IMG/VR virus record: IMGVR_UViG_3300033388_001351
Span: 1-25,315 of that record
Strand: one strand, 5' to 3'
From: a virus
Length of the DNA stretch: 25,315 bases
Shown here piece after piece: positions 402 to 23,785 of this stretch. A program made the position numbers and the translations under genes. Below the pieces are notes generated by a model. That model did not search any database and was not told the DNA's origin. It saw only the letters and a list, made by a program, of their open reading frames with translations. Each line of letters opens with the position of its first letter. Position 1 is the first letter of the stretch.

Positions 402-620
402 TTATACAGGCTCGACAGTAAAATGTTGAGCCTGTTCTTTTGAAAAGGCAATAGTTGTGCCCATTATTCTGAATTCGTATGCGTTGCCAGCAGTAGTGAG
501 GTGCGTTACTTCGACGCCTTCCACTAATCCCATTATCATAAGGCGCTGCACATTAGAGTCGGACACATTAACGGATGTTATAACACCTCTTTGCCCTTTG
601 CCTAGTTCAGTTATACACAT
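402..620 (-). CDS. FeoA-domain protein (72 aa)
   Basis: The whole protein is one FeoA-like SH3 barrel. It has LGKGQRGVITSV at 6-17, the family hallmark RLMIMGLVEGVEV at 26-38, and a closing FRIMGTTIAFSKEQAQHFTV at 50-69. In bacteria FeoA is a small cytosolic partner of the FeoB ferrous iron transporter, and similar domains serve as binding modules in DtxR-type regulators. No feoB is visible here, so iron transport is not implied. The domain may act as a protein-binding module or as an accessory gene affecting host iron uptake. The start overlaps the stop of the upstream gene (TAATG), so it is translationally coupled as the last gene of the late operon read from about 3541. Its 3' end overlaps the tRNA terminator hairpin. 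Confidence 0.8.
   Translation of the reverse strand: MCITELGKGQRGVITSVNVSDSNVQRLMIMGLVEGVEVTHLTTAGNAYEFRIMGTTIAFSKEQAQHFTVEPV
406..441 (+). terminator. Rho-independent terminator after the tRNA-like genes
   Basis: A 12-bp stem (406-417 with 424-435, one G-T pair) with loop GTAAAA is followed by TTCTTTT. It begins 6 nt after the encoded CCA, so it should end the tRNA-like transcript. The same bases encode the last residues of the FeoA-like protein on the opposite strand. Confidence 0.8.
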
Positions 621-1114: not shown

Positions 1115-3517
1115 TTACATGAACATGGCGTGGAAGCGAGCGGTTGTGCCTTCGTTAGAAGTACCTGCGTAACCAATGCCAATGTTGCCTAATGTGGAAG
1201 CCTGTTTGACAGCCTTCATTATTACTTCAATATTATCATGGTCGTCACTTGTTAGTTTCTTACCATCTTTACGTTTTAATGCAACTGGAACTTCAACATC
1301 GATATCGTAGTCATTGTCGCGCATCATATCAGGATCCTCTACGTCGTCAGCTTGGTCACGCCATACAACATTGTAAAAATCACTATTACGTAAATCGCTT
1401 AGTAGTTGGGCTGCGCCGCCACCAAATTCATATCCGTATTCATCTTCTGAATCATCGATGTAAAGTATAGGGACGTTATCATATTCGACCTTGTTTGTTT
1501 GGTCACGTTTGTATTTTGCTTGACCGCGTTCGCGCTTTGTGCCACCGCCACGTAGGCGCCAGTCATCGTCTTGTTGATGATCTAGTCCTGCCGTAGGCCA
1601 ATCAAGTAGTTCACCTGTTTCAGGATCAACTACGTCGTGACTTACATCATCATCTGGGCCTAGATCGGCTAGAAAACGCTCGGCGTCTTCACTAGTTGCG
1701 CCACCAGTCATTGCACTACTGCCGCGTAGCTCAGGTGGGACTTCAACTACTCGACCAACTGCTTCGTTAAGATCGTTAGAACTTGCAATAATATCATAAT
1801 GATCTAATTCACCACGAATAGAGACGCCTGCTTTACTATCGAAACTTGTAACACCCTCTCGTCGTCCAGGATACTTTATATACAGCAATCTACCATCTGT
1901 ACGTGTAACCTCGCCCATTGCGCCACCGATTTTTGACATTACTTTCTTGCCTTGTGCTAGCAAGCTCTTGACCTGTACTGAGATAGGATCTTCTTCATGA
2001 CGGAAGGTGCCCTCTTCAACATCAGTAGTTCGGTATGCTTTCTTCATACCTGCGTCACGCTTTGCCTTCCTAGCATCATATTTCTTCTGTTGTGCTTTTG
2101 TTTTAGGCTTATCTGGAGTTTGAATCGGGCCGCGCCAAGTAGTAGCTGATCGGTAGTCTTCTTCTAGCCCTTGCTCTCTTTTCTTTCTTCCTGCGTCACC
2201 GCATTTACACGGGAGTCTAATAATGCCGCTGTACGGATTGACCCAGCCGCTGCCGCGGCATGATCGGCATGTCGGATCAGCATCAAGTTTCTCTAGCTCT
2301 TCCTCGTCTTCTTCAAGTTCTGGATTGTACTTGCCGTCTGGACGATGGGTTGGGTCATATGCTAATTCGATCTGATCGTGTGACCATTCACTAAGATAAA
2401 GTGTTACAACAGGGCCGCTATACAACTTAATTTGATATACGCCTTCTTTTGAGCCGCTGTCGCTGTACTCCCAAGTTGCGTCGATGACCTTCCCTGTCTC
2501 ACCCTGATATTCGCCGCCAGTAATTTTAACCGTCTGGCCTAGCCATTGCTCGTAGTTTTCTTCGTACGGGCCAAGGTTCTTATCTTCTTCGCCTTCTTCA
2601 AGACCATCAGTCCTGTTACTCCAACTGTAGTTTGGCTTATCCATGTTGTCTAGCGTCTTGCGCAAGTTCTCTTTCCAATCAGTCTCGCCACCTGCAAGCT
2701 TATCACTCATGTATTGTGCTGCCATATCACCAAGTTGTGTGCGAATTAACTCGATCAATTCATCATCTGGCATTCTCTTATTATAATGTGCAATATCCTC
2801 GGCTGCGGCTGCAAGGCGAGAGTGGTAACTTTCATTTATGTCGTCGCATACACACTCGTCTTCTGACATTGCGCTGCAATTGCGACACCAAAGATCATTA
2901 CGATCTGAGTCACCCTCGTTAACACTCTCAAACGGGTTAGCTAGCATAAAATCATCTTCTGAATCTTCAAATGACATTGTATCAGTATTGAAGATCATAT
3001 CTTCTTCGTGGTCTGTTTCAGGATTCCACGCCATGACACTAACTTGGTTAGGCTGGTCTGTTGTTTTACCCATTGCACCTGGCTGATAACCTGGCTTGGC
3101 TTTTGCCAAATCAGCAACAATCTGTGCATAGATACGGTCGGGTACAAGTGGCCCATCTGTATCATCATCATATTCATCTTCTGATAGTCCTTCGTTAGTC
3201 CAACCAATTATGCCTTCCCCGTCGCAATTGTCACAAAATTCGCCTGTGAAGCCGCCTTCTGTACCTGTATTGCCTTCCCCATCGCATTCAGGGCAGTCGC
3301 GTTCACCTGAAGCGGCGTTTGCAGCTTGCAGAAATTTAGCACGATCAAAGCGTGGGTTGCTTTGTGCGAATACGTCCGCATATAGATTTGCGTTTGCTTG
3401 TCGAGCGTCAACGTCTTCAATTTTAGTAAGTATGTCAGCAACCATCACAAAATCTTTACGTGTATATTCTTCGTCAATCCTTTTGATTGATTCCATTAGT
3501 TTTCGCATTTCGTTCAT
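1115..3517 (-). CDS. large modular zinc-finger late protein, candidate polyprotein (800 aa)
   Basis: Start at 3517 (MNEMRKLMESIKRIDE) rather than 3559, because the gene at 11108 begins with nearly the same sequence and because the late promoter +1 is near 3541. The protein is a string of small acidic modules. CPEC/CDNC DnaJ-like zinc knuckles lie at about 75-98, CRNC/CVC at 211-224, a KOW/SH3-like segment at about 322-386 (WLGQTVKITGGEYQGETGKV), and CRSC/CKC at 417-439. A Lys-rich stretch covers 470-495 and an acidic C-terminal region about 600-760. Modules are separated by VNE|G (201), INE|S (229), LEE|G (308), LEE|D (453), VEE|G (502) and LNE|A (585), which fit T4 gp21-type cleavage. I infer a capsid-packaged protein that may be cut into pieces during head maturation. 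No enzymatic motif was found. An uncleaved structural protein is the alternative. Confidence 0.7.
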   Translation of the reverse strand: MNEMRKLMESIKRIDEEYTRKDFVMVADILTKIEDVDARQANANLYADVFAQSNPRFDRAKFLQAANAASGERDCPECDGEGNTGTEGGFTGEFCDNCDGEGIIGWTNEGLSEDEYDDDTDGPLVPDRIYAQIVADLAKAKPGYQPGAMGKTTDQPNQVSVMAWNPETDHEEDMIFNTDTMSFEDSEDDFMLANPFESVNEGDSDRNDLWCRNCSAMSEDECVCDDINESYHSRLAAAAEDIAHYNKRMPDDELIELIRTQLGDMAAQYMSDKLAGGETDWKENLRKTLDNMDKPNYSWSNRTDGLEEGEEDKNLGPYEENYEQWLGQTVKITGGEYQGETGKVIDATWEYSDSGSKEGVYQIKLYSGPVVTLYLSEWSHDQIELAYDPTHRPDGKYNPELEEDEEELEKLDADPTCRSCRGSGWVNPYSGIIRLPCKCGDAGRKKREQGLEEDYRSATTWRGPIQTPDKPKTKAQQKKYDARKAKRDAGMKKAYRTTDVEEGTFRHEEDPISVQVKSLLAQGKKVMSKIGGAMGEVTRTDGRLLYIKYPGRREGVTSFDSKAGVSIRGELDHYDIIASSNDLNEAVGRVVEVPPELRGSSAMTGGATSEDAERFLADLGPDDDVSHDVVDPETGELLDWPTAGLDHQQDDDWRLRGGGTKRERGQAKYKRDQTNKVEYDNVPILYIDDSEDEYGYEFGGGAAQLLSDLRNSDFYNVVWRDQADDVEDPDMMRDNDYDIDVEVPVALKRKDGKKLTSDDHDNIEVIMKAVKQASTLGNIGIGYAGTSNEGTTARFHAMFM

Positions 3518-3543: not shown

Positions 3544-3572
3544 TTGTATTTATCAACAACTTATGTTATACT
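3544..3572 (+). promoter_or_regulatory. extended -10 host-type promoter for uvsW
   Basis: TGt-TATACT (-10 at 3567-3572) with a weak -35 TTGTAT (3544-3549) at 17 bp. Expected start of transcription is about 3579-3580, at the ATG itself. It overlaps the divergent late promoter, so the two would compete for polymerase. Confidence 0.6.
3546..3554 (-). promoter_or_regulatory. T4-type late promoter
   Basis: Reads GATAAATAC on the minus strand. With T4 spacing (last A of the octamer at -6), transcription starts near 3541, giving a 24-nt leader before the ATG at 3517. Confidence 0.8.
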
Positions 3573-6986: not shown

Positions 6987-7516
6987 GTAACATTATAGTA
7001 GACGTTGAAGCAGATGGCCCTTGCCCTGGCTTGTACAGCATGGTATCATTTGGTGCAGTTGTCTTAAGCGAAGGCTTGAACAAAACATTTTATGGTCAGC
7101 TTCGTCCGTTGGACGATGCAAGCATGCCGTACTTGCCAGATGCACTAGCGGTATCAGGACACAGCAGGGAAGAAGTAATGACCTTTCAGAATCCAGAAAC
7201 AACTATGCGAGAATTTGCAGAATGGATTGCGAAAGTAGACAAAGGTCGGCCAATTTTTTGGGCAGACAATAACGGATTTGATTGGCAGTATATCAATTAC
7301 TACTTCCACAGATTTTATGGCCGTAATCCATTCGGGTTCAGTTCACAGAACATAAATAGCTTATATAAGGGAATTACAAGAGACTTGTTTGTGAGCTTCA
7401 AACACTTGCGTAAAACGAAACATACTCACCACCCTGTTGATGATGCAAAGGGTAATGCAGAAGCATTGCTAGCAATGCGAGACACAAAGAATCTAAAGAT
7501 TACAGTTGACAAATAA
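6983..7516 (+). CDS. DEDDh 3'-5' exonuclease (RNase T/DnaQ fold, 177 aa)
   Basis: A small exonuclease removing nucleotides from 3' ends through two metal ions. Exo I is DVEADGP (D7, E9), exo II is WADNNGFDWQYI (D100), and exo III is HTHHPVDDAKGNAEAL (H149/H150 and D153/D154). The length fits a stand-alone exonuclease domain. Similar proteins occur in T4-like cyanophages; it may act like T4 DexA in host DNA degradation, but T4 DexA is larger and the match is by motif only. The start overlaps the previous stop (ATGA), so it is translationally coupled. Confidence 0.85.
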   Translation: MSNIIVDVEADGPCPGLYSMVSFGAVVLSEGLNKTFYGQLRPLDDASMPYLPDALAVSGHSREEVMTFQNPETTMREFAEWIAKVDKGRPIFWADNNGFDWQYINYYFHRFYGRNPFGFSSQNINSLYKGITRDLFVSFKHLRKTKHTHHPVDDAKGNAEALLAMRDTKNLKITVDK

Positions 7517-8192
7517 AGCTAAATTTGCGTGTGGATTTTGCAAACGAGCGTTTACAAATGAACGCACGTTGGGCGCGCACATGTGCGAAAAGAAGCGGCG
7601 TCACAATGACAAGGAAAGTGTAGCTTCTCGTATGGGATTAACATTGTATCAACGCTTTTATGAGTTGAATACAGCAACTAAAAAGCCTAAGTCAATTAAT
7701 GAATTCATCGACAGCAAGTATTACACGGCATTCATAAAGTTTGCACGGCACTTGATGGACTTGAGGCCAGTTGACCAAGCACGGTTTGTCGATTACGTAT
7801 TTCGTAATGGCATTAAGGATAGAGACTGGTGCAAGGACAAAGTATATGAGGCATACATTTTAGACTTGCTAGCAAAAGAACCTGCGTCCAGAGGATTGGA
7901 GCGTAGCATACGCAGCATGGAAGAGTGGGCTAAAGATACAGAGCATGAGTTTAACGAATTCTTCCAGTACGCAACACCATCTGAGGCAACACACATGGTG
8001 CAGATGGGTAAGATTAGTCCGTGGGTTTTGTACTTGGCTGAAACATCAGATTTGTTGTGGGACAGACTTAGTGACGAGCAAGCAAACCTGATTTCGTCTG
8101 TTGTCGATCCAAAAATATGGCAAGCAAAGTTTTCAATCAAACAAGAGGAGTGTAACTTTACACGCGATATATTGCATGAGGCGCACATATAA
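7506..8192 (+). CDS. N-terminal zinc-finger phage protein (228 aa, TTG start)
   Basis: Starts at TTG 7506, overlapping the exonuclease by 11 nt; no ATG precedes the finger. A C2H2-like finger lies at residues 9-33 (CGFCKRAF, then H25, C27 and H33). The remaining ~190 residues are helical with the signature YTAFIKFARHLMDLRPVDQ, a family I recall from marine T4-like phages without a known function. The finger suggests nucleic-acid binding, and its position between an exonuclease and a DnaE-like protein suggests a DNA-metabolism role. Both points are inference. Confidence 0.7.
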   Translation: MTNKAKFACGFCKRAFTNERTLGAHMCEKKRRHNDKESVASRMGLTLYQRFYELNTATKKPKSINEFIDSKYYTAFIKFARHLMDLRPVDQARFVDYVFRNGIKDRDWCKDKVYEAYILDLLAKEPASRGLERSIRSMEEWAKDTEHEFNEFFQYATPSEATHMVQMGKISPWVLYLAETSDLLWDRLSDEQANLISSVVDPKIWQAKFSIKQEECNFTRDILHEAHI

Positions 8193-8776
8193 TGAAAGTT
8201 GACACAGATGTAGACATTGATGTATTTGATCGAAACATTCTCTTAGATAAGGTGCCGCATATTGTTGCCCGCATTGATAGAGAAGATGGCTACGTGAAAC
8301 ACAATACAGGCGTGTACTTCCAACGTATTCCATATGACCCAGTAACAAACATGTCTACGTTCGATCATAAGGACGCCGAAGAACTTGGGTATTTCAAAAT
8401 TGACTTTTTGAATAACAGTGTATACAAAGGTGTGCGTAACGAAAAACACTTGAAGGAACTTGCTGATAAAGAGCCTCAATGGGATTTGTTGGAGCATGAA
8501 GACATTATAGCGAATCTTGTGCATATACATGACTACGCCGAGTTAGTAGGCCGATTAAAGCCAACAACATTACCACAGCTTGCAATGATTCTCGGAGTCA
8601 TTCGACCAGGCAAGGCACACTTGCGCAACAGCACATGGGAAGAAATTGAAAAGGACGTTTGGGTCAAGCCGACTGACGGCAGCTACTACTTCAAAAAATC
8701 TCACGCACATGCTTTTGCATTGTCAATTATGGTGCAGTTGAATTTGATGGTTGAAGTTGCACTAACACAAAGTTGA
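8192..8776 (+). CDS. miniature DnaE-like (Pol III alpha) palm/finger protein (194 aa)
   Basis: The sequence follows the bacterial DnaE catalytic core in condensed order. Residues 4-14 (DTDVDIDVFDR) match PDFDVDF, which holds two catalytic Asp. Residues 36-43 (KHNTGVYF) match KHAGGVVI. Residues 54-73 (MSTFDHKDAEELGYFKIDFL) match the segment ending KFDFLGL, with the third Asp as D71. Residues 119-141 match the segment ending LFRPG (VIRPGK here). Residues 166-178 (YFKKSHAHAFALS) match the FNKSHAAAYAL finger motif. The PHP, thumb, tau- and clamp-binding and OB domains are absent. A T4-like phage should already carry a B-family polymerase, so this may be a relic with a new job or a specialised small polymerase. 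Coupled to the upstream gene by TAATG. Confidence 0.75.
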   Translation: MKVDTDVDIDVFDRNILLDKVPHIVARIDREDGYVKHNTGVYFQRIPYDPVTNMSTFDHKDAEELGYFKIDFLNNSVYKGVRNEKHLKELADKEPQWDLLEHEDIIANLVHIHDYAELVGRLKPTTLPQLAMILGVIRPGKAHLRNSTWEEIEKDVWVKPTDGSYYFKKSHAHAFALSIMVQLNLMVEVALTQS

Positions 8777-8777
8777 T

Positions 8778-9020
8778 ATGACGATCCTTGAAGATCCTGA
8801 TAGAGAATATGGCTTAGTAGTTGGTGAGCCTTATTTGTGGCGTGATTATAACGGCAAGTATTGTATTCTTCAAGATGAGACTATGCTTAAGACAGATGAG
8901 AATGGTCATGTAAATGCATTATATTCGTCAGAAGAACTGGTTGATCCGAATCCATCGGAAGCAGAAATATTCAAATTTATATTAGCGGGTAAGGTTAAAA
9001 AGTCAGGTTATAGGGTATAG
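8778..9020 (+). CDS. small hypothetical protein (80 aa)
   Basis: Begins one base after the previous stop and ends overlapping, tail to tail, the minus-strand gene ending at 9008. It is acidic and predicted to be beta-rich in the first half (YGLVVGEPYLWRDYNGKYCI). No recognised domain. It is the last gene of the uvsW-led cluster. No hairpin terminator is visible at the convergent end. Confidence 0.6.
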   Translation: MTILEDPDREYGLVVGEPYLWRDYNGKYCILQDETMLKTDENGHVNALYSSEELVDPNPSEAEIFKFILAGKVKKSGYRV

Positions 9021-9613
9021 ATTTTGGGATTGCCCTGATCGTCTAGCTCATACTCAGCAGCATGTTTAGCAAATGCTTGATCGCCTTCCCTAAACATATC
9101 TTGTAAGCGTTCCAGCGCACCAATCGTAGCCTTGTAATTCTTCTTACCCAACGTAATAGCAGCATGGCGAGCCATTGCTTGCGCATAATTATAAACAGGA
9201 AGCTTTGCATGTTCCTGTGCGTATGCAGCTAATCTTTTATCTACTTCTGCTCTGTAAGCTTCTTCTGTAAGGCTTGGGTCCTTCTCTTGCCTGTAGCTGA
9301 CGCTAGAACGCACGTTTTCTTCGGCCTCTTTTTCAAATCCGTATCCTCTAGTCAATGTACCCAAAGTCTTTTCTACTTTGTCCCTAACAATTCCAGGATA
9401 GAAACTTCCGTAGTGCGCGTGGTGTGACATACGATGTGTTAGGTCACCCACATGTTCAAGTACAAAACTTAATACGCCACCACCCAATGCTGTCTGCGCC
9501 TTACGCATAGCAATTTCAGGAAGGCCACGTTGCTCGTTGCCTAGTTCAACGAATGCTGCCGCAACATGCTCGGGTAGCTCAATTTCTTTGTTGTCAAACT
9601 CAAATAATCTCAT
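9008..9613 (-). CDS. helical late protein, possible virion cargo (201 aa)
   Basis: Start ATG 9613 (MRLFEFDNKEIEL) overlaps the upstream stop as ATGA. The protein is almost entirely helical, with amphipathic stretches such as EEAYRAEVDKRLAAYAQEHA and ATIGALERLQDMFREGDQAF, and His-rich RMSHHAHYGSF in the middle. No cysteine motif or membrane segment. The opening MRLFEF resembles the short leaders of other late proteins here but lacks a clear (I/L)xE|small site. It is the fifth gene of the minus operon read from the late promoter at 11436-11444. Confidence 0.6.
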   Translation of the reverse strand: MRLFEFDNKEIELPEHVAAAFVELGNEQRGLPEIAMRKAQTALGGGVLSFVLEHVGDLTHRMSHHAHYGSFYPGIVRDKVEKTLGTLTRGYGFEKEAEENVRSSVSYRQEKDPSLTEEAYRAEVDKRLAAYAQEHAKLPVYNYAQAMARHAAITLGKKNYKATIGALERLQDMFREGDQAFAKHAAEYELDDQGNPKIYTL

Positions 9614-10194
9614 GTGCCTATTTCGCGCTTCAACCTTAGTTGTGTTGCAAAGCCTAATCCAGGAACTACGCTGCCGACTTTCCAGCCGAACCATATTTCA
9701 CTGTATGTGCCGTCGTCATTGAGCCATACACGACGCCAGCCAGCAAGTAGGCCCCTACGACGCCACAGCGAGGCGCTGGTCACACCCGCTGCAATCAGAT
9801 CGTGTGCTTCCAAGCTATCTCCTTGCCAACCATACTTGTCAAAAGGTTTATCATCGTCAAATAGGAAGCGCATGTTATTAAGTGGGTTGCGTATAGAGAA
9901 CCACCACCATTGTGGAAATACTTTCTTGTACCAAAAGTTTTGTACATAGCGATCAAACCATGCAGGGTAGCCTTCTTCTTGATTGCCGTAAATTGGGAGC
10001 TTCTTCATGTCTACATTGAATAGCAACGCTAATGGAATTACAACAACCATACCAAACGGAATTAATCCGACTGGCAAGAATGCCTGCCACCATGTTATAT
10101 CAACAAACGGCCATACGATAACGAGTGGGAAAACAAACAACAGCATGATAACTGCCCACTGTACAATGTGAAATAGTTTAACTAAAGGATTCAT
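9610..10194 (-). CDS. phage membrane protein with two N-terminal helices (194 aa)
   Basis: Two hydrophobic helices span about residues 7-30 (IVQWAVIMLLFVFPLVIVW) and 36-60 (WQAFLPVGLIPFGMVVVIPL), followed by a Trp- and Arg-rich soluble part (FPQWWWFSIRNPLNNMRFLF; RRRGLLAGWRRVW). I recall this arrangement from a family of small phage proteins of unknown function. Its place in a late operon suggests a role at the membrane during assembly or lysis, but no holin or spanin signature is present. Linked by ATGA overlaps on both sides. Confidence 0.65.
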   Translation of the reverse strand: MNPLVKLFHIVQWAVIMLLFVFPLVIVWPFVDITWWQAFLPVGLIPFGMVVVIPLALLFNVDMKKLPIYGNQEEGYPAWFDRYVQNFWYKKVFPQWWWFSIRNPLNNMRFLFDDDKPFDKYGWQGDSLEAHDLIAAGVTSASLWRRRGLLAGWRRVWLNDDGTYSEIWFGWKVGSVVPGLGFATQLRLKREIGT

Positions 10195-10625
10195 GCGTAA
10201 TCAGTTGGTTGCCAGCGAGGATGCATGTTCTTAATTTCGTTTCTGTCAAAATCATCCATCTTTGACATAGAGCGAACATCAGCACCATGATAATCTAGGA
10301 CATACCCAGAATCATCGCGCTTTCCGTAAACATTCTTGTCTTCAAAACTGCCATCATCATAAGCTGCATCAAGCTTTCTAGCAATTTCTGCGGCCTGCTC
10401 ATATGACTCAACATTAATGGCTACAACACGCCCGCCATCGCCCTTTCCTTTGTATCGTCCCTTGCCATCAGCAGGATCGCCGTCGCCATACCATTCCCAT
10501 GATTGCGCATGCCACGCAACATAGTAAGGTGAATCTTTCATAGCTTGCTCTTTTTCGCCTTGCTCACTATTGTAATCGACCATCTCTGGATCGTCGCGGC
10601 GAACCGCTATTTCTACTAATTTCAT
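10191..10625 (-). CDS. hypothetical late protein (144 aa)
   Basis: Starts MKLVEIAVRRDDPE. The leader resembles those of other late genes here (MKLLEI, MRLFEF). A central Gly/Lys/Asp stretch (GDPADGKGRYKGKGDGG) is followed by VVAINVESYEQAAEIARKLD, which looks like a small alpha/beta fold. It has no cysteine, membrane or enzyme motif that I recognise. The stop overlaps the next start as ATGA, and 3 nt separate it from the gene upstream. Confidence 0.6.
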   Translation of the reverse strand: MKLVEIAVRRDDPEMVDYNSEQGEKEQAMKDSPYYVAWHAQSWEWYGDGDPADGKGRYKGKGDGGRVVAINVESYEQAAEIARKLDAAYDDGSFEDKNVYGKRDDSGYVLDYHGADVRSMSKMDDFDRNEIKNMHPRWQPTDYA

Positions 10626-10628
10626 AAT

Positions 10629-11108
10629 TTAATCCTTCCTATTCTTTTTGAAAACAGTAACACGTTCGCTATAATAGCCATTTGACTGACCGAACCAACG
10701 TAATGTTACATGCCCTTTTATCGTGCCAAGTTTGTAAAATGTCCAAGTGTATGACTCAACCATGTAGTCACCGTAGTAATCTCTATCATCTTCGTCTGAC
10801 TTCAATCGGTCAGGCGGATTCTCATCTCTGCTAACAACTTCTTCAGCTTCTAAAATTGGGGTGCCGATTAGGTCGTCCAAATCACCAACAATATCTTCAA
10901 GATAAACAGACTCGCAGCAATCGCCTACATGATACATCTCATAATATTCGTCGTCTGCTGTCGTAAAATCAATCTGTGCCTTACCTGAGCCAACCTCAAC
11001 ATGAGTGAGAACTTTTCCTTTAAGGTCGGCAATATCTACTTGGTCATCTTCCCAATAGCCTTCCTCGATTCTCTCGATGGTTTCCATTAGTTTTCGCATT
11101 TCGTTCAT
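10629..11108 (-). CDS. conserved small protein, DUF7448-like, with cargo-type leader (159 aa)
   Basis: After a leader MNEMRKLMETIERIEE|G, nearly identical to that of the 800-residue protein, the body carries LKGKVLTHVEV, then YHVGDCCESVYLEDIVGDLD and IGTPILEAEEV. From memory this matches a widespread phage/bacterial domain listed as DUF7448; function unknown. Family members I recall lack the MNEMRKLME leader, which suggests the leader was added as a targeting tag, probably for packaging into the capsid. I-E-E|G at the leader end fits a prohead-protease site. The start overlaps the upstream stop by ATGA. Confidence 0.7.
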   Translation of the reverse strand: MNEMRKLMETIERIEEGYWEDDQVDIADLKGKVLTHVEVGSGKAQIDFTTADDEYYEMYHVGDCCESVYLEDIVGDLDDLIGTPILEAEEVVSRDENPPDRLKSDEDDRDYYGDYMVESYTWTFYKLGTIKGHVTLRWFGQSNGYYSERVTVFKKNRKD

Positions 11109-11435: not shown

Positions 11436-11444
11436 GTATTTATC
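11436..11444 (-). promoter_or_regulatory. T4-type late promoter, leaderless
   Basis: GATAAATAC on the minus strand. With T4 spacing, +1 falls at 11431, the first base of the start codon. Confidence 0.8.
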
Positions 11445-15879: not shown

Positions 15880-15927
15880 CGCCAGTTTTTAGATAAATAC
15901 ACAGAGTAACTTATTTAGGAACTGGCG
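15880..15927 (+). repeat. inverted repeat enclosing a late promoter and reaching the start codon
   Basis: CGCCAGTT (15880-15887) and AACTGGCG (15920-15927) are perfect complements. The late promoter lies in the loop. The right arm lies just after TTTAGG and ends on the G of the GTG start codon. Only read-through RNA from the helicase gene would carry both arms. Confidence 0.75.
15892..15900 (+). promoter_or_regulatory. T4-type late promoter for the cargo operon
   Basis: GATAAATAC; predicted +1 at 15905, giving a 22-nt leader before GTG 15927. The RNA starts inside the loop of the surrounding inverted repeat. Confidence 0.82.
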
Positions 15928-16582: not shown

Positions 16583-16768
16583 ATGAAACTATTAGAAATA
16601 CAACGACAAATGAAAAAGCGTAGGAATTTCCGTGAAGGAAATTATGCTATTTCTGTGAACCTAGTAAATCCAGGCGATGAATTTCAAGAATTTCTAAAAG
16701 TAAAAATTACAGAAGACGGCAAGATCGTTGCAAAGTTTTCTATATCTAATATACGTATTACGAAATGA
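16583..16768 (+). pseudogene. truncated copy A of a duplicated small gene
   Basis: MKLLEIQRQMKKRRNF and the following residues are the same as copy B downstream up to DGKIVAK. After the GCAAAG ending at 16735 the sequence changes to an unrelated short tail (FSISNIRITK) and stops. The first 153 bp match copy B except for two synonymous changes (CTA/CTG Leu, CGT/CGC Arg). This looks like a truncated duplicate; the peptide may still be made, as it has its own start 1 base after the upstream stop. Confidence 0.65.
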
Positions 16769-16868
16769 CGGCACAGATGTACTTAACGGCCATCCAGATT
16801 CGCGTCGATACTACGCTAAAGAAGATTTTGAGTGGCTGGAAGGCACATGGGAAGCACCGCAGAGATGA
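16736..16868 (+). pseudogene. C-terminal remnant of a gene between repeats
   Basis: In the frame ending TGA 16866-16868 the segment reads YVLRNDGTDVLNGHPDSRRY and YYAKEDFEWLEGTWEAPQR, which looks like real protein. No start codon or coding-like sequence joins it upstream. Its stop overlaps the ATG of copy B (ATGA), the normal operon junction of this phage. It seems to be the tail of a gene whose front was replaced by copy A. Confidence 0.5.
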
Positions 16869-17231
16869 AACTGTTAGAAATACAACGACAAATGAAAAAG
16901 CGCAGGAATTTCCGTGAAGGAAATTATGCTATTTCTGTGAACCTAGTAAATCCAGGCGATGAATTTCAAGAATTTCTAAAAGTAAAAATTACAGAAGACG
17001 GCAAGATCGTTGCAAAGCCTAGTAAATCCAGGCGATGAATTTCAAGAATTTCTAAAAGTAAAAATTACAGAAGACGGCAAGATCGTTGCAAAGGCACTTT
17101 TTAAACAGTGGGCGGGTAAAGACAGGTGGGAACCACTTAGCGTTACTATCGAAAACCCAGCACAACGCATTAGTTTGCGCGAGATGATTTATAACGCAGC
17201 CACTAATGCAGGATTTTTTATCAAGGACTAA
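16865..17231 (+). pseudogene. small late gene broken by an exact 76-bp tandem duplication
   Basis: Copy B starts MKLLEIQRQMKKRRNF at 16865 and runs to DGKIVAK, then goes out of frame at 17018 because the last 76 bp are repeated and 76 is not a multiple of three; it stops at 17038. The third copy continues in another frame as VAKALFKQWAGKDRWEPLSV to the end at 17231. Removing one 76-bp unit restores one protein of about 96 aa: a leader, a beta-rich segment (AISVNLVNPGDEFQEFLKVK) and a helical end. No function recognised. It may be a live mutation, a mixed population or an assembly error. Confidence 0.65.
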
Positions 17232-17232
17232 C

Positions 17233-18390
17233 ATGAAGAATATTACAGAAGCATCCACACTATCAGGCTTGGGAATTCCAGACAATATTGTAAAGAGAAT
17301 TCACACAGAATTTAGCCCTACACTTAAACATGACCATGAATTTGAAGAGCTTAAGACAAAAGGCCAGATGCAGACAAAGCTGAAGCGCGGCAAACTCATT
17401 ATTGGTTTTAGTCCAAAGGGCGACATTGCAAGTATGCGTGAGGGTGGCAAACGCCACACAAGGTACTACGGAACTATTGGCTCAGAAGAGGTTGATTCCT
17501 CGGCTAGCATGAAAGACATGCTAACTAACTTTTCAGGACGGGGTTGGAAGTGGTTTGCTACAGTTGACGGTTGGAGAGATAAGCCGTACCATGAATTCAG
17601 GCGCCAAGAAACACCAAATTATGAAATACATGATGCGTTCAAAGATAAGCTAGAAAAAGTACATGGCCCAAAACTACGTAAAGAAGCAGCACAATACGCC
17701 GAAGACATAAAAGAATTTCTAGTTACATTTGCAACAGGTGATGAAGTGAAAGTTGATAAGCATAGGTGGCGCGGCGATGCGGATCCTAATGATCTGTATA
17801 TGGGCAAACTTCGTAGAGCAATGCATAACCTACGTAAAGTCGCAAGTTCAGATACGCCACACCATGAATTTTCCCCGAAAGGTATTGCTGATCTTATTGA
17901 CCAAAATGTAGGCGAGCCAAAAGTCGATTATGATTTCCAAAAAGTAGATGATAAGTCAGGAAAATACATGCGCAATGCTAAATTAGGAACTGCTAAGGTA
18001 GCTCAACTGGTTTTGCGTAAGTTACGTGCATATAGGGATGATGTGATTGACGCGGCTAAGAAAGATCGTGCTAGTCAAACAAAGAAACGTTCACTTGGTA
18101 AAGTAAAGAAAGCTTGGGAAAGCTACAAAGATTCAGGCAAGGTAAATGTTTTGTCAGAAGACGAGTTTGACCAATATGCTGCTGAGGTAGATCCGTATAC
18201 CTCAGGCTACAAAGCAGGTCTAAAGCAAGAAGAAGCAAGCCGATTTGATGCCGTACGCGATGCTAGCGCATTTCAGGCATACAAAGCATGGATAATCGAA
18301 GTAGGACAAAGTTCAGCCTCAGTTAAAAATGCAGAAGAATTTGTGCGTGGTTGGAATGATGGTGAAGCAATCAGTGGAGTAGGTATATAA
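17233..18390 (+). CDS. basic late protein with cargo-type leader (385 aa)
   Basis: Start ATG 17233, 2 nt from the upstream stop. It begins MKNITEASTLSGLG, where I-T-E|A matches the prohead-protease site and resembles T4 internal proteins. The body is Lys/Arg-rich and helical in the second half (LGTAKVAQLVLRKLRAYRDD, KKRSLGKVKKAWESYKDSGK). The first part has an alternating Gly/Thr-rich segment (RHTRYYGTIGSEEVDSS) and WKWFATVDGWRDKPYHEF. No known enzyme motif. Basic, packaged proteins of this sort could bind the genome or enter the host with it; this is inference from leader and composition. Confidence 0.6.
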   Translation: MKNITEASTLSGLGIPDNIVKRIHTEFSPTLKHDHEFEELKTKGQMQTKLKRGKLIIGFSPKGDIASMREGGKRHTRYYGTIGSEEVDSSASMKDMLTNFSGRGWKWFATVDGWRDKPYHEFRRQETPNYEIHDAFKDKLEKVHGPKLRKEAAQYAEDIKEFLVTFATGDEVKVDKHRWRGDADPNDLYMGKLRRAMHNLRKVASSDTPHHEFSPKGIADLIDQNVGEPKVDYDFQKVDDKSGKYMRNAKLGTAKVAQLVLRKLRAYRDDVIDAAKKDRASQTKKRSLGKVKKAWESYKDSGKVNVLSEDEFDQYAAEVDPYTSGYKAGLKQEEASRFDAVRDASAFQAYKAWIIEVGQSSASVKNAEEFVRGWNDGEAISGVGI

Positions 18391-18746
18391 TGAACGACAT
18401 GAGAAAATTAATGGAAGCTGTTGAGCAAGCACAGACAGCAAATCCTGTAGATACAGTCACAGTAGACATTCCTCTATTGATTCGACTACTTGAATTCTCC
18501 CGCGAAGATGCAAAGACTGATATGGATTTGCATAACCTAGCAGACAATATGATTAACTTGTCGCCTGAGGGTAACACATTAACAATGGCTGACTACGAGG
18601 AATTGATAATGGGACTTGCAGGCGATGATGACGCCGAAGGCCCAGAAACATTTACTACAGACGATGGTCGCGAAGAACCAGTACGTGGTAGAATGTCAGA
18701 CGATGATGATTATGGTGTTGGCGGACTGATTGACCAAGGACGATAA
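18390..18746 (+). CDS. acidic late protein with MNDMRKLME leader (118 aa)
   Basis: Begins MNDMRKLMEAVEQAQ, the third copy in the window of this leader type. The core VTVDIPLLIRLLEFSREDAK, MDLHNLADNMINLS and LTMADYEELI is a small helical fold I recall from marine T4-like phages without function. The C-terminus is very acidic (GDDDAEGPE, SDDDDYG). Overlaps its neighbours at both ends (TAATG). Confidence 0.65.
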   Translation: MNDMRKLMEAVEQAQTANPVDTVTVDIPLLIRLLEFSREDAKTDMDLHNLADNMINLSPEGNTLTMADYEELIMGLAGDDDAEGPETFTTDDGREEPVRGRMSDDDDYGVGGLIDQGR

Positions 18747-19600
18747 TGAGAGCACTTGAGCTACTAGAAAAACGCCGCATAGTTGAAGGCGGAAACGTAT
18801 TTCCAGATGTGGGTGCAATACATATCTCGGAAGTCGAGCCTACGCTCAAGGCAATTGGAAAATACATTAACTACCCGCAAGCATCGCAGCAGGCACTAGG
18901 CAGTGTCGGCAAAACAGATTACTCAGGTGACATTGATATTGCATTAGACGTTCAACCCGAACAAATCAAAGTTATGCATGATAAAATTTCTAAGAAGCTC
19001 GGCGCAGACAGCGTGAAGATGGTATCGGGCATTTTGACCCTACGCTTTCCGATTGCAAATTATGACGAGTCCCAACAGGAGCGTCAACCACGTACTGGAC
19101 TAGTACAGGTTGATTTGATCCCAGGTAACGTTGATTGGATGCGTACATTTTTCCATTCTCCAGGCAAGACATCCGAATATAAAGGCGCACATAGAAACAT
19201 AGCACTGGCGACAGTTGCGGCGCTACTTGAGAACACGGCAAGCAAAGAAATGGACAGTCACGACCGCCCAGTTGCAGCAGAACGTTGGTCTTGGGGTAAG
19301 AAAGAAGGACTACAGAAAGTTCGTAAAACAGGAATCAAGAAAGGCGACAAGTGGCTTAAGAAACAAGACATTGAGGTCATTTCTACGCCTACAAAAAATC
19401 CTAATGAAATTGCAAAGATACTTTTCAAAGGCAAAGCTGGTGCAGAAGCACTAAACAGCTTAGAGTCTATTATTGCAGCGGTACAAGTAGCATATAGCCC
19501 TGACGAAGCCGCAGCAATCTTTGAACGCATGGCGTGGTCACTGAATACACGCGATCTTGATGCTAAACTTCCACCCGAACTAGAGCCATATAGAAAATGA
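18746..19600 (+). CDS. Pol-beta-fold nucleotidyltransferase with cargo-type leader (284 aa)
   Basis: The leader MRALELLEKRRIVE|GG fits a prohead-protease site. The core has the minimal nucleotidyltransferase signature: GS at 52-53, then DYSGDIDIAL with D62 and D64, and third acidic residue D123 in LVQVDLI. Such enzymes transfer nucleotides to proteins, RNA ends or small molecules. A C-terminal half rich in Lys (GIKKGDKWLKKQD) and helices could bind nucleic acid. Its 3' end overlaps the ligase-like gene by 4 nt (ATGA), so the two are co-translated and probably work together. Substrate unknown; RNA-end repair, nucleotide tagging of a host protein, or a role in the capsid are all open. Confidence 0.75.
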   Translation: MRALELLEKRRIVEGGNVFPDVGAIHISEVEPTLKAIGKYINYPQASQQALGSVGKTDYSGDIDIALDVQPEQIKVMHDKISKKLGADSVKMVSGILTLRFPIANYDESQQERQPRTGLVQVDLIPGNVDWMRTFFHSPGKTSEYKGAHRNIALATVAALLENTASKEMDSHDRPVAAERWSWGKKEGLQKVRKTGIKKGDKWLKKQDIEVISTPTKNPNEIAKILFKGKAGAEALNSLESIIAAVQVAYSPDEAAAIFERMAWSLNTRDLDAKLPPELEPYRK

Positions 19601-20802
19601 GAGCAAGAGAGCTTCTAGCAGAGGCCAAGAACCCTCACCTCGCCCACCTTGAAGATTTACTTTTCGATAAGGGTTATGCGGGTGCAGTGGAGTCTCTAAA
19701 ACTTGCGACAGGTGTTCGCAATATGCTTGCAAAAGGCAAGGGAAAGCGCGGCAAGGTCACAGTCAAGTTTGACGGTGCTCCTGCAATCTTCGCAGGCATT
19801 GATCCTGCTGACGGTAAGTTTTTTGTCGGCGGCAAGGCAGCATTTTCCAAGAATCCAAAAATGATTAAGAAGCCGTCTGATATGAAAAAGTTTTATGATG
19901 GCGCGCCCGAAGGATTTACTTCCAAAATGGCTATTGCATATACTGAGCTAAAGAAGCTAGGCATTAAGAACGTATTACAGGGCGATTTAATGTTTGTAAG
20001 TGATATGCTAGACCACACAACAATTGATGGCGAGGAATACCTTACATTTACACCAAATACAATTACGTATGCAGTTGAGGCAGGTTCAGACTTAGCAAAA
20101 GAAATGCAACGTGCAAAATTTGGCATTGTATTCCATACAGCATATGAGGGTGGAGAAACAATTAACGATGCAGATAAGACATTTGACATTGACTTGAGTG
20201 GATTGAACAACACGCCTGACGTTTGGTACGATGATGCAGAATACAAAGACATGACAGGCATTGCTTCCCTGACTCTTGAAGAAGATGAGCACCTACGTCA
20301 AGAGATTATTGCAGCAAAAGCCAGGTTAACAGAATTGGGCAAGGGTGCAATTGACACAATTGTAAATAACCCTGAATTCAAGAAAACAATTCAAGTCTTT
20401 GTTAACGCTAATGTACGCGCTGGGCAGCACATGCCGTCATCTGAACAGTTTACTAGGGATTTCCTAAACTTCCACAAAGAACGCACATTGCAAGATGTTG
20501 GTGATTTGAAATCGGATCTTGCAAAGCAAAAGAGGCACCAAAAAGTCGAGGACAAGAAATCATTTATTGAACAAAATCAACAAAGCGTATACAAGCTAAT
20601 TGATTTGTATAATCACCTAAATGAGATTAAATTGATCCTTATAAACAAGCTAAATACTATTGATGGAATGAAGACATTTATTCGATCAGGAAATGGATTT
20701 GAAGTTACAAACCCTGAGGGCTTTGTAGCACTAGGTCATCAAGGTGACGCAACAAAATTAGTTAACAGGATGGAGTTCTCACAGCAGAACTTCAACAAAT
20801 AA
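19597..20802 (+). CDS. ATP-dependent ligase-like protein, DUF6267-type (401 aa)
   Basis: The leader MRARELLAE|A resembles that of its partner gene. The body shows the covalent nucleotidyltransferase motifs of ligases in order. Motif I is VKFDGAPAIFAG (K57 predicted nucleophile, D59, G60). A motif III-like VLQGDLMF lies at 126-133. The motif IV-like EGFVAL has E374, and the motif V-like TKLVNRMEFS has K387. A helical insertion at about 230-350 widens the III-IV spacing. From memory the family is listed as DUF6267 in T4-like phages; its ligase relationship is my reading of the motifs. DNA or RNA end joining is plausible, possibly with the nucleotidyltransferase upstream. Confidence 0.65.
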   Translation: MRARELLAEAKNPHLAHLEDLLFDKGYAGAVESLKLATGVRNMLAKGKGKRGKVTVKFDGAPAIFAGIDPADGKFFVGGKAAFSKNPKMIKKPSDMKKFYDGAPEGFTSKMAIAYTELKKLGIKNVLQGDLMFVSDMLDHTTIDGEEYLTFTPNTITYAVEAGSDLAKEMQRAKFGIVFHTAYEGGETINDADKTFDIDLSGLNNTPDVWYDDAEYKDMTGIASLTLEEDEHLRQEIIAAKARLTELGKGAIDTIVNNPEFKKTIQVFVNANVRAGQHMPSSEQFTRDFLNFHKERTLQDVGDLKSDLAKQKRHQKVEDKKSFIEQNQQSVYKLIDLYNHLNEIKLILINKLNTIDGMKTFIRSGNGFEVTNPEGFVALGHQGDATKLVNRMEFSQQNFNK

Positions 20803-22103
20803 TGAGCAAATACGAATTAGTACATGAACTTTGTGAGAGTCGGATTTTCCGTAGCAAACAAGCTATGGGTAAATACAATGAACGCCAAGCAAATGAACTA
20901 CTTTATTCTATATTGCTATCTACTATTGCATTAGCACTAAACCCAAAAACACATACTTGGGCTACGAAATATGCAGCTAAAACTGGCGCATTTGGCAACT
21001 TTACCTTTTTCCGACCAACAGCTACCGACCTATATGTGTTAACATATATGGCGTACAAAGAGAATGGCGCAATTGGTAAACAGGGTGCCCAAAAACTCTT
21101 GCGTCTTTACAAAGAATTAGGCAGGGGTGACGTTGATTCAAATTATGCAGAACAGACACTATTGCGTTTGGAACGTGGATTGAAAGTTAACAATGCGCGC
21201 CTACGTAATGCTCGTCGTGTGCTTACGCATTGGGGCAACTCTTCTCCAGATGAACAAAAGCAAACACTAGCAAACCTGTATCGTATTGTTCGAGCAGATG
21301 CTAAACTAGCGGAAGTATTGCCGTACTTGCAAGTAGCACAAGCTGGTGAGCCAGGACACTTTGGTAAAATGGGCATTGGCAAATTTGCAGCAGCATTAGC
21401 TGGCGCTGGACTTGCTGGTGTTGCATTAGGCTCAAGACTCTATGATCCTGGCAAACGTTGGGGCGTATTGAGGAACAGCGCAGAAAAGGGCGGCATTTAC
21501 CTCAAAGAAGATCGACCAACACAGTTATTCAACCTTGTACAAAATCTAAACCAGCATCCTGACATTGAAAAGATCATTAGCGTTAACTATCTAGTTGACG
21601 GTGCATCTGCATTTGTTCGCACTACTGATGGTAACGCATATGAACTAGAAATTCGGCCTGCCCCATTCGCTAAGGGACACGATGTAAAACGTGGTGTAAC
21701 TGAGGCTGTTGGAAAAATTGCTTGCTTGAAATGTGACGAAGTTTCAACTGAAAAAGCATGGAATGAGAACGATGATGTTTGTCCTAAATGTCATGCATCT
21801 ACACAGGGCGTAGCTGAGAGCTATACAGTTACAATTACTGAGCGCAACGATGCGGCAATTACAGGCAATGATGCAGCAATAATAGCACGAACAGCCAAGC
21901 AGGCAGCAGAAGTTTTTGACAAAGCAGACAAAGGCGGCGATGGTTGTGCTGTTGAGGGCGAGTCTGTTCAGGATCATTTGAAAAATGTTCGTGCTATGTA
22001 TGGCGTAGAAATCGTAGATGACTTCTTAGATGTGCTTGACTTTCCTAATGCTGAAGGCGACACTGCTAAACAACAAAGTTTACTCACAAAAGACAATAGA
22101 TAA
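20802..22103 (+). CDS. modular late protein with zinc ribbon and predicted cleavage sites (433 aa)
   Basis: Begins MSKYELVHELCE|SRIF, a leader with a possible (L)xE site. Residues 15-230 are a helical body with a Gly/Ala-rich hydrophobic stretch near 193-210 (FAAALAGAGLAGVALG) that could insert into a membrane. Then come GVTE|AVGKIACLKC, a zinc-ribbon module (CLKC, CPKC), GVAE|SYTVTITE, and a final helical module (VQDHLKNVRAMYGVEIVDDF). The module borders use the same VxE|(A/S) pattern as the 800-residue protein, and EAVGK here parallels EAVGR there. I infer a packaged, processed protein; the membrane-like stretch would suit delivery into the host. Confidence 0.6.
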   Translation: MSKYELVHELCESRIFRSKQAMGKYNERQANELLYSILLSTIALALNPKTHTWATKYAAKTGAFGNFTFFRPTATDLYVLTYMAYKENGAIGKQGAQKLLRLYKELGRGDVDSNYAEQTLLRLERGLKVNNARLRNARRVLTHWGNSSPDEQKQTLANLYRIVRADAKLAEVLPYLQVAQAGEPGHFGKMGIGKFAAALAGAGLAGVALGSRLYDPGKRWGVLRNSAEKGGIYLKEDRPTQLFNLVQNLNQHPDIEKIISVNYLVDGASAFVRTTDGNAYELEIRPAPFAKGHDVKRGVTEAVGKIACLKCDEVSTEKAWNENDDVCPKCHASTQGVAESYTVTITERNDAAITGNDAAIIARTAKQAAEVFDKADKGGDGCAVEGESVQDHLKNVRAMYGVEIVDDFLDVLDFPNAEGDTAKQQSLLTKDNR

Positions 22104-22187: not shown

Positions 22188-22439
22188 ATGGTAGATAGAA
22201 TTAATGGTGGCCCTCTTCAGGGTATTTGGTTCTCGCAAGATGTTCGTTTTGCGAGTGTTACACTAACAAACGGCGGCGACAGCTTTTTAACAGAGCTAGG
22301 AAACAGCCCAACAGGTAACGGTGATGCAGCAGTTGTAACATCAATTGATACTCAAATCGAACTTATTGCAGACCTATCTGTAGCTACAGTTACAGTAGAG
22401 TCTGGTTTTGGCCCAGTTGCAGAAGGCACACCAGGATAA
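22188..22439 (+). CDS. small late paralogue 1 (83 aa)
   Basis: Begins MVDRINGGPLQGIWFSQDVR and ends VTVESGFGPVAEGTPG, both matching the next gene (paralogue 2), but the middle is about 50 residues shorter. It is Gly/Thr/Val-rich, lacks Cys and Lys, and is probably a compact beta protein. Own late promoter, strong ribosome site (AGGAG) and terminator indicate high late expression, as for a capsid decoration or other abundant virion protein. Function is inferred from expression signals only. Confidence 0.65.
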   Translation: MVDRINGGPLQGIWFSQDVRFASVTLTNGGDSFLTELGNSPTGNGDAAVVTSIDTQIELIADLSVATVTVESGFGPVAEGTPG

Positions 22440-22465
22440 TTACTTTCACAGTAATAAAAAATTAA

Positions 22466-22490
22466 GCAGCACTTCGGTGCTGTTTTTTTT
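22466..22490 (+). terminator. Rho-independent terminator with UUCG loop
   Basis: CAGCAC-TTCG-GTGCTG followed by eight T. Confidence 0.95.
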
Positions 22491-22521
22491 GGCTCATAAC
22501 TATATAAAAATAACACAGATA

Positions 22522-22530
22522 GATAAATAC
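22522..22530 (+). promoter_or_regulatory. T4-type late promoter
   Basis: GATAAATAC; predicted +1 near 22535, 39-nt leader to ATG 22574. Confidence 0.85.
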
Positions 22531-22537
22531 TTGCATA

Positions 22538-22552
22538 GTAGGATTAACCTGC
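22538..22552 (+). promoter_or_regulatory. 5' UTR hairpin, second copy
   Basis: GTAGG-ATTAA-CCTGC; the C-to-T change relative to the first copy turns a C-G pair into U-G, so the stem is kept although the loop changed. Confidence 0.6.
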
Positions 22553-22573
22553 GACAAAATTAGGAGAAGTAAA

Positions 22574-22966
22574 ATGGTAACAAGAGTAAATGGCGCACCA
22601 ACACAGGGCGTATGGTTTTCAGCAAATGTTCGTTTCTTAGATCTAACAGTAACAAACGGCGATTTCCTTAACGACCTAACTGTACCTGGTACAGCACCTG
22701 TACCAAACAGCACACTAGAAGTAGTTCTAGAAGCAATTGCAACACGCGGCACAATCATCGGAGTAACAGTCATTGATATTGATGACGTTAATGTTATGGT
22801 TGATTATGCACAAGCATATGACGATGCAGCAGTTGTAGCAGAAGTTACAGCACTAATTGATGCATTCGACGGCGCAACTCCAGGCTTGGATGTTGCTGAT
22901 CTAACAGCTTCAGCATTCGTAGTTGAATCTGGTTTTGCAGGCGCAACACAGGGTACACCAGCATAA
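22574..22966 (+). CDS. small late paralogue 2 (130 aa)
   Basis: Shares its start (MVTRVNGAPTQGVWFSANVR) and end (VVESGFAGATQGTPA) with paralogue 1. Its middle (LEVVLEAIATRGTIIGVTVI, then DIDDVNVMVDYAQAYDDAAV) aligns with paralogue 3 downstream. The composition is acidic and beta-rich with no Cys or Trp beyond the N-terminus. Late promoter, conserved 5' UTR hairpin, strong ribosome site and terminator point to an abundant virion protein. Confidence 0.65.
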   Translation: MVTRVNGAPTQGVWFSANVRFLDLTVTNGDFLNDLTVPGTAPVPNSTLEVVLEAIATRGTIIGVTVIDIDDVNVMVDYAQAYDDAAVVAEVTALIDAFDGATPGLDVADLTASAFVVESGFAGATQGTPA

Positions 22967-22993
22967 TAGCTAGTATACTTGCACAAAATTTAA

Positions 22994-23020
22994 AGCAGTC
23001 CTTCGGGGCTGCTTTTTTTT
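22994..23020 (+). terminator. Rho-independent terminator with UUCG loop
   Basis: AGCAGTCC-TTCG-GGGCTGCT (one G-T pair) followed by a T run to 23020. Confidence 0.95.
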
Positions 23021-23039
23021 GTCTTAAAAATATCTTTTA

Positions 23040-23048
23040 GATAAATAA
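23040..23048 (+). promoter_or_regulatory. T4-type late promoter
   Basis: GATAAATAA; predicted +1 near 23053, 25-nt leader with AGGAG before ATG 23078. Confidence 0.8.
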
Positions 23049-23077
23049 CAGTATAACCAAATTCAGGAGTTAGAACA

Positions 23078-23785
23078 ATGGCAGTAAGAGTACACGGCGG
23101 CATAATTAATGACCAAATGCTAGCAGGTAACATTCGATATTTCGATATTGAAGAAGCTAACATGACAGTGAATACAATTGCGAGTCTAGGCACAGCTAAT
23201 CCATTCCAAGTAACCAAAGCCGAAACAGTAGTTGGTGGTACGGGCTATTCGGTACTTGATGTATTGACAGTAGTTGGTGCAGGCACAGCAGCAACATTGA
23301 CTGTAGAAGTTGTAGACGCGGGCGTAGTTGTTGGTGTTTCGTTAACAACACCTGGTTCTTACACTACCCTGCCGACTAATCCAGTAGCCACAACTGGTGG
23401 CGCGGCCACAGCAACATTTGATCTGAGCTATACAAGTACCCTAATCATCCCAGGTGCAGGAACAGGCGCAAATGAATACTTTGTTGCCCGTGATAAGCCA
23501 GTTGCAGGCAGCGCAGTAGATCAAGTGCTATTTGAAGTTGCAAAATTTGGCACAATTGTACAAATCGCAATAGTAGACGTAGATACAGTACGTGTAGCAC
23601 TTGAAAACGATAGCATGTCTTGGGATACGGCTGTAGTAGGTGACGCGGCAGCAGAGATGGAAGATGCAATTCAAGCACTAGGTACAATAACAGTTCCTGA
23701 CGTAACAACAAACGGCCTAGGTTTTGACCTAAGTTTAGCAACGGTCAACGAGCGTACACTCGCAAGTTTCGCACCATTGCCGTAA
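23078..23785 (+). CDS. late paralogue 3 with inserted beta domain (235 aa)
   Basis: The ends and C-terminal part follow the small late paralogues: MAVRVHGG at the start, FEVAKFGTIVQIAIVDVDTV and a segment near DAAAEMEDAIQALGTI. Between about residues 47 and 122 it carries an extra Gly/Val/Thr-rich domain (VVGGTGYSVLDVLTVVGAGT, VSLTTPGSYTTLPTNPVATT) of a kind I recall as an insertion in marine phage structural proteins. I infer a domain gain in a duplicated virion protein, possibly exposed on the particle. Own promoter and terminator. Confidence 0.65.
   Translation: MAVRVHGGIINDQMLAGNIRYFDIEEANMTVNTIASLGTANPFQVTKAETVVGGTGYSVLDVLTVVGAGTAATLTVEVVDAGVVVGVSLTTPGSYTTLPTNPVATTGGAATATFDLSYTSTLIIPGAGTGANEYFVARDKPVAGSAVDQVLFEVAKFGTIVQIAIVDVDTVRVALENDSMSWDTAVVGDAAAEMEDAIQALGTITVPDVTTNGLGFDLSLATVNERTLASFAPLP

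Follow-up and report, generated by a model that had tools for sequence, protein, structure and literature searches.

A mosaic open reading frame with a capsid-targeting-like leader and gp21-type border sites: a putative cargo polyprotein of T4-like large phages

The window analysed here is a virus record of 25,315 bases, itself a fragment, that carries on its minus strand an ORF of 800 amino acids (ATG at 3517, stop codon at 1115–1117). The initial annotation had read this ORF as a late gene for a polyprotein, with at least six [LIV]-x-E/[GSAD] motifs located between small modules (here and below a slash marks the predicted cut). The locus raises the question whether these motifs are sites at which several proteins are released or mere features of an acidic sequence. 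In phage T4 the protease gp21 cuts after L/I-X-E (PMC9026906). We counted 13 [LIV]xE motifs in the ORF compared to 11.3 in shuffled sequences (p = 0.34), that is no enrichment, and 9 compared to 3.7 when the motif is followed by G, S, A or D (p about 0.009). Since the plain motif occurs at chance level, motif number alone is weak evidence. Counting was therefore dropped as the sole proof and the question becomes one of position. Module borders with an [LIV]xE were found at residues 16, 113, 201, 229, 308, 403, 453, 502 and 585, which confirms the claimed motifs with nine border sites; most of these were found again at the same module edges in relatives on other contigs. The motif at residue 9 lies within the leader, those at 256, 377 and 592 lie within modules. 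A composition proxy for disorder at the borders gave p about 0.014; it is a proxy only and no structure prediction. A chance frequency of [LIV]xE in a protein with high D and E content would also fit a multidomain protein that is neither cut nor packaged, its sites being accidents of acidic linkers and its leader serving, for example, membrane or replication-site targeting.

Cutting at the borders is inferred and would divide the ORF as follows:

3470–3517, minus strand: leader, residues 1–16 (MNEMRKLMESIKRIDE), capsid-targeting-like, with the predicted site IDE/E at its end
3179–3469, minus strand: predicted product 1, residues 17–113, ending LSE/D
2915–3178, minus strand: predicted product 2, residues 114–201, PLVPD module, ending VNE/G
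2831–2914, minus strand: predicted product 3, residues 202–229, short Cys-rich piece (CRNC...CVC), ending INE/S
2594–2830, minus strand: predicted product 4, residues 230–308, SRLAAA module, ending LEE/G
2309–2593, minus strand: predicted product 5, residues 309–403, KOW-like module, ending LEE/D
2159–2308, minus strand: predicted product 6, residues 404–453, CRSC...CKCG piece, ending LEE/D
2012–2158, minus strand: predicted product 7, residues 454–502, basic DYRS module (pI 10.0), ending VEE/G
1763–2011, minus strand: predicted product 8, residues 503–585, SLLAQGK module, ending LNE/A
1115–1762, minus strand: predicted product 9, residues 586–800, C-terminal module with the stop codon

Homologues were obtained by IMG/VR scans (L001–L005) and by leader and module searches (L040 and G020, the latter as L112, also L121). 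Products 1, 3 and 6 were delimited from the sequence, product 8 by alignment with L001, L002 and G020, and product 9 by alignment with L001, L002, L004 and G020. The domain claims of the initial annotation held in part. Three CxxC pairs or clusters are visible, product 1 contains two CxxCxGxG motifs that are DnaJ-type zinc-like, and a basic module is present at residues 454–502. The KOW match remained sub-threshold, with 19.2 bits against a Pfam cut-off of 22.3, and was likewise sub-threshold in two homologues (range 19.2 to 21.0 bits). Apart from this match Pfam returned nothing for the ORF. No relative was detected by tblastn against 50,697 named phage records, nor did the L001, L002 and L004 polyproteins yield any relatives by tblastn against named phages. 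The KOW piece had no match in named phages; this query was perhaps out of frame and adds nothing to the search with the whole ORF.

The polyprotein family in IMG/VR is small, comprising 8 distinct ORFs including that of the window, one of which is also present on a second contig. Searching with the C-terminal, SLLAQ and SRLA modules led mostly to known contigs, and in addition to L122 and to 3300033155_000566, which carries the same polyprotein as G020. The homologues on seven other contigs do not match end-to-end; they are built from a shared set of modules, arranged and combined differently. SRLAAA, for instance, has an internal position in L002 and in the window, stands right behind the MNEMRKLME leader in L004, and comes after a different leader-like stretch in G020. 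The KOW-like module is preceded by the PLVPD module in L001, by SRLAAA in the window and by other modules in L003 and L004. DYRS is located before SLLAQ in the window and after it in L001.

The residues at these junctions are similar across contexts. For the SRLA module we found IEE/GYFSRLA at the leader of L004, IDE/GYFSRMA and INE/SYHSRLA internally in L002 and the window, and IDE/SYFSRLA in G020, whose module is 75% identical to that of the window; I-x-E immediately ahead of the module is invariant. Site 113 is seen again ahead of the next module in L001 (INE/D) and L005 (LEE/E). This PLVPD module (67% identical to L001, 56% to L005 and 31% to L002) is then followed by different modules in L001 and L005, with borders IEE/G and LEE/S. 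The KOW-like module (83% identical to L003, 75% to L001, 46% to L004) ends in LEE in all four proteins, window included, and the next context differs in each. Before the C-terminal module the border reads LNE/AVGRVVEV in the window, IHE/GVGRVVEV in L001, VQE/AKGKVVQV in L002 and LEE/EVVEV in L004. Another module occurs in two contexts with 82% identity, after the leader in L044 (IEE/ANQGGKTEHS) and internally in L054 (VNE/ANQGGKTEHS).

An edge was defined as the start of a BLAST segment in a pair of polyproteins, simple continuations excluded, and was scored for the presence of [LIV]xE. Both partners carried the motif at the start of homology in 18 of 28 pairs, where 1.05 were expected from random positions and 5000 draws gave at most 6. 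With every edge counted a single time, a site was present at 18 of 33 (6.3 expected), and the same test on other leader proteins gave 8 of 16 (1.6 expected). None of these counts is corrected for shared ancestry among the homologues. At 10 of the 28 edges the site was not present in both partners, and in L001 the SLLAQ module is joined on without an [LIV]xE ahead of it. Independent modules split by protease-type sites, one criterion for a viral polyprotein, are nevertheless found, and the permuted modules with their shared edge sites support the polyprotein with gp21-type borders that had been claimed, with cleavage inferred.

This claim is further supported by a relative in which one module corresponds to an entire protein that stands alone in other phages. 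Residues about 338–415 of the G020 polyprotein, located between VGE/E and LNE/A, match 74 named phage records, mostly of Gordonia and Mycobacterium phages. The matching proteins of Mycobacterium phage Iwokeuplikedis (gp93) and of phage DSL-LC05 have 80 amino acids and are covered almost from end to end, while in Gordonia phage Remus the match is the C-terminal part of a 137-amino-acid protein. Two starts are possible for the G020 polyprotein, MSQKQWK (683 amino acids) and MNAISEF (634 amino acids). As far as sequence comparison can tell, the best explanation would be that modules shift by recombination between polyprotein genes and stand-alone leader genes, with only the protease site kept at each join.

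The internal sites could also be relics of gene fusion, in a packaged multidomain protein that loses nothing but its leader and works as a single chain. T4 internal proteins lose one N-terminal propeptide (PMC9026906), and a fusion of neighbouring leader genes would carry their sites into the product. A 499-amino-acid protein of another phage (L122), which contains part of the C-terminal module, indeed still holds leader-like copies inside: it has the internal leader copy IKIKRSQLRRLIRE/, and its downstream neighbours begin with MKITxRQLRRIIRE/ or close variants. At the joins of the window family, however, only the last leader residues (L/I/V-x-E) are retained and the rest is gone, in homologues that are 31–83% identical. 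As relics would decay, selection on the site is likelier than fusion debris, and we regard cutting of the leader alone as unlikely.

Two features had been missed by the initial annotation, the N-terminal leader and a second polyprotein in the window. The leader has the 16-residue consensus MN[DE]MRKLMExxxx[IL]xE. MN[DE]MRKLME opens proteins in 54 IMG/VR stretches, corresponding to 47 nonredundant proteins that are otherwise unrelated, with up to six of them per contig. The leader codons vary synonymously, so that conservation is at the protein level. An [LIV]xE ending at residues 13–22 was found in 38 of the 47 proteins, in 24 of these at residue 16; shuffling gave 12.1, with at most 24 in 2000 shuffles, and the control windows had such a motif in 16% of cases. 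In the remaining 9, including the gene at 18390, no [LIV]xE is present at the expected place. The first 10 residues of T4 IPIII constitute a capsid-targeting sequence (CTS) that is enough for uptake into the head, and IPIII carrying Asp at position 10 is still targeted yet escapes processing (PMC9026906). The window leader fulfils the T4-type criterion of a short N-terminal leader ending in L/I-x-E and resembles the T4 sequence; targeting and uptake into the head are inferred. The other genes of interest in the window are:

10629–11108, minus strand: second gene with the MNEMRKLME leader (..RIEE/G, then DUF7448)
18390–18746, plus strand: third leader gene (MNDMRKLMEAVEQAQ), no [LIV]xE right after the leader
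18746–19600, plus strand: gene with the short leader MRALELLEKRRIVE/G, homologue of the MS-detected gp253 of PA5oct
19597–20802, plus strand: DUF6267 gene with the short leader MRARELLAE/A
20802–22103, plus strand: second mosaic polyprotein-like gene, 433 amino acids, with borders LCE/S (12), LKE/D (236), VTE/A (301) and VAE/S (339)

In the second leader gene both the Pfam match to DUF7448 (residues 28–151) and the match to phrog_2650 (residues 18–156) lie outside the 16-residue leader. Most homologues of the DUF6267 protein among the matches listed align from residue 10. The corresponding leader in phage Melnitz is LINFSKYITE/D, and DUF6267 of Synechococcus phage S-SZBM1 is without a leader; different leaders therefore seem to be attached to, or missing from, the same protein. 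In PA5oct no MNEMRKLME leader was found by tblastn. Short leaders of the type M[KR]hx[ED]h with a ribosome-site-like sequence upstream belong in PA5oct to MS-detected proteins in 5 of 6 cases. This result is only suggestive since the motif was picked after viewing those proteins. Short PA5oct leaders with their predicted sites include those of gp104 (LTE/K), gp246 (LVE/S) and gp333 (ITE/G). A short query for the MNEMRKLME leader against named phages gave a sole match, in a microvirus, which was judged to be due to chance. As a separate observation, a second leader system built along the same lines is present in L122 (178-kb contig), where positions 7167–11053 hold a run of MKITxRQLRRIIRE/-type genes with leader-like copies in the fused protein.

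The 433-amino-acid protein matches G012 (53%) up to the site at 301, which is VTE/A in the window and INE/G in G012. Beyond residue 301 no convincing similarity to G012 was found, and the homologue in G023 comprises module 1 only. Virion proteins of PA5oct are marked by ESI-MS/MS in its GenBank record. Two of these, gp253 and gp252, are homologous to the window genes at 18746 and 20802, respectively; what gp252 has in common with its window counterpart is mainly the module starting at LKE/D (LQE/S in gp252). By helicase, which is 53–57% identical, PA5oct-like Pseudomonas phages rank among the closest named relatives.

Upstream of the 800-amino-acid ORF we found a promoter-like motif:

3547–3554, minus strand: GATAAATA, T4-late-promoter-like, about 30 nt upstream of the polyprotein ATG

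The late promoter of T4 is TATAAATA, which GATAAATA resembles. The motif occurs 9 times in the window compared to 1.17 expected, and TGATAAATAC is located 37–42 nt upstream of the homologous ORFs L001–L005. This consensus match supports the proposed late expression of the polyprotein, for which expression data are not available, so that it remains putative. Further copies of GATAAATA are located at 15892–15899 (plus strand), ahead of the late cluster (15927 onward), and at 11437–11444 (minus strand), ahead of minus-strand genes including the second leader gene.

The initial annotation had also suggested looking for gp21 and its sites in gp23. No gp21 was found in the 25-kb window fragment, in a search that did not take in gp23. 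Peptidase_S77 (gp21) and Gp23 are, however, both present in four leader-bearing contigs (G005, G015, G016 and G017), two of which are 328 and 340 kb long. All 62 loci of PA5oct gp23 relatives in which this region could be located carry [LI]xE/[SN]A[TS]A, at the position where T4 gp23 is processed, and the group's capsid protein thereby bears out the expected site. Capsid genes of this kind are also present on contigs from the samples that yielded L001, L002, G012 and G020; their assignment to the same phages is a guess. Weak and short gp23 matches in G007, G010, G012 and G022 were not taken as capsid proteins, and the gp23-like ORFs inspected in G012 and G010 are small and no capsid proteins. 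Proteins of about 120 amino acids with an N-terminal piece of gp23, e.g. LIPLIRKIAPSMIANDLVNVQPMTG, are encoded at L079:12796–13176 (G012) and L080:6092–6439 (G010).

Together these data bear on the possibility that the 800-residue protein is neither cut nor packaged. No member of the polyprotein family has been seen in a virion, which would be in line with it, as is the chance frequency of the plain motif. The coincidence of edges and sites is, however, far above chance, the site is fixed immediately after the leader, a late-promoter-like motif is present and T4-type head genes lie on leader-bearing contigs; an uncut protein appears quite improbable to us. A third possibility is a core or scaffold protein which is cut many times and the fragments of which exit the head, so that it would not carry cargo. 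In T4 gp21 cuts the core proteins into several fragments (PMC9026906), and gp22, gp67 and gp68 have, like the window polyprotein, several gp21-type sites per protein. These T4 proteins, unlike the proposed cargo polyprotein, are parts of the scaffold, and their fragments mostly leave the head. In the wider group a separate gene occupies the scaffold position between the protease and capsid genes. The modules are diverse; some have the look of folded domains (KOW-like, Cys pairs), and one corresponds to a phage protein that occurs by itself. All of this leaves very little room for a scaffold role. No similarity to the T4 core and scaffold families (gp22, gp67, gp68) was found by Pfam or PHROG.

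Our preferred reading, to which we assign a probability of roughly 0.7, is that ORF 3517–1115 encodes a late cargo polyprotein that is targeted by its leader to the prohead and cut by gp21 into up to nine proteins. It is limited in that neither cutting nor presence in virions has been documented for this phage or clade. During assembly the first 16 residues would bind the prohead core. A gp21-type prohead protease would then cut after L/I/V-x-E at exposed linkers and remove the leader. Up to nine small proteins of 3–24 kDa would be freed within the head, their packaging being inferred, and may be ejected from it together with the DNA, which is inferred as well. Nucleic-acid or protein binding would fit the Cys-pair and KOW-like modules, for which there are no binding data. 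By analogy to T4 IPI and the P1 Dar proteins, counter-defence in the host may be a reasonable guess for the role of the products. The findings suggest that many different proteins can be loaded into a phage head from a single gene. For the T4-like large-phage clade we lean, by a small degree only, towards a modular loading system in which interchangeable, protease-separated cargo polyproteins and a standard capsid leader deliver sets of small proteins into the host with the genome; module content would be reshuffled between phages, and at least one small protein apparently stands alone elsewhere.

The CTS has been proposed in a review as the means by which T4-like phages take up various proteins (PMC9026906). 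The window group shares with T4 IPI–IPIII and Alt an N-terminal leader of 10–20 residues ending in [LI]xE that recurs on proteins which otherwise differ, a protease and capsid proteins of T4 type (seen in related contigs), and a late-promoter-like motif. It differs in the sequence of the leader, in that one ORF appears to hold up to nine cargo modules separated by sites, and in the exchange of modules between fused and stand-alone genes. In phiKZ and SPN3US, as far as the accessible part of the sources covers them, many packaged head proteins (ejection or inner-body proteins) are similarly trimmed after Glu by a diverged gp21, and SPN3US gp53 and gp54 are divergent paralogues with identical N-termini (PMC5694885). 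There, however, multiple sites lie in discarded propeptides, the motif is S/A-X-E (phiKZ) or A-X-E (SPN3US), and cargo modules separated by sites are not described in that part. In P1 an N-terminal signal brings the large antirestriction protein DarB into the head (PMC9024508); DarB is a single protein with its own signal, and no multi-module polyprotein is described. PA5oct (Arenbergviridae) has a similar late cluster with the gp253 and gp252 homologues detected by MS and a capsid protein with LVE/N, but no match to the window polyprotein.

If the preferred reading is true, one gene and one targeting signal load several different proteins into a phage head, and leader plus site constitute a sequence rule that predicts capsid cargo in genomes where most genes lack a known function. 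A search with the leader yields many candidate cargo proteins at once, and what large phages inject besides DNA becomes directly testable. For capsid delivery of multiple cargoes, so far achieved in T4 via single fusions, it would also offer a design from nature.

Some further features of the window were noticed. Downstream of the polyprotein, 402–620 (minus strand) encodes a FeoA-domain protein (Pfam 4.9e-12), and similar small ORFs come after the polyprotein in the L001–L004 and G020 relatives. At 16583–17231 (plus strand) a segment that encodes NLVNPGDEFQEFLKVKITEDGKIVAK and measures at most roughly 150 bases is present three times, with truncated and frame-broken copies; either it was duplicated in tandem recently or the repeat is an artefact of assembly. 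The stretch 22188–23785 (plus strand) encodes three small proteins that look related (M-V-x-R-x-N/H-G...), and each of them has a GATAAATA motif of its own. The window protein at 23078 has a weak match to a head-decoration PHROG, and PA5oct gp250 and gp251, both MS-detected, resemble the window proteins at 23895 and 23078.
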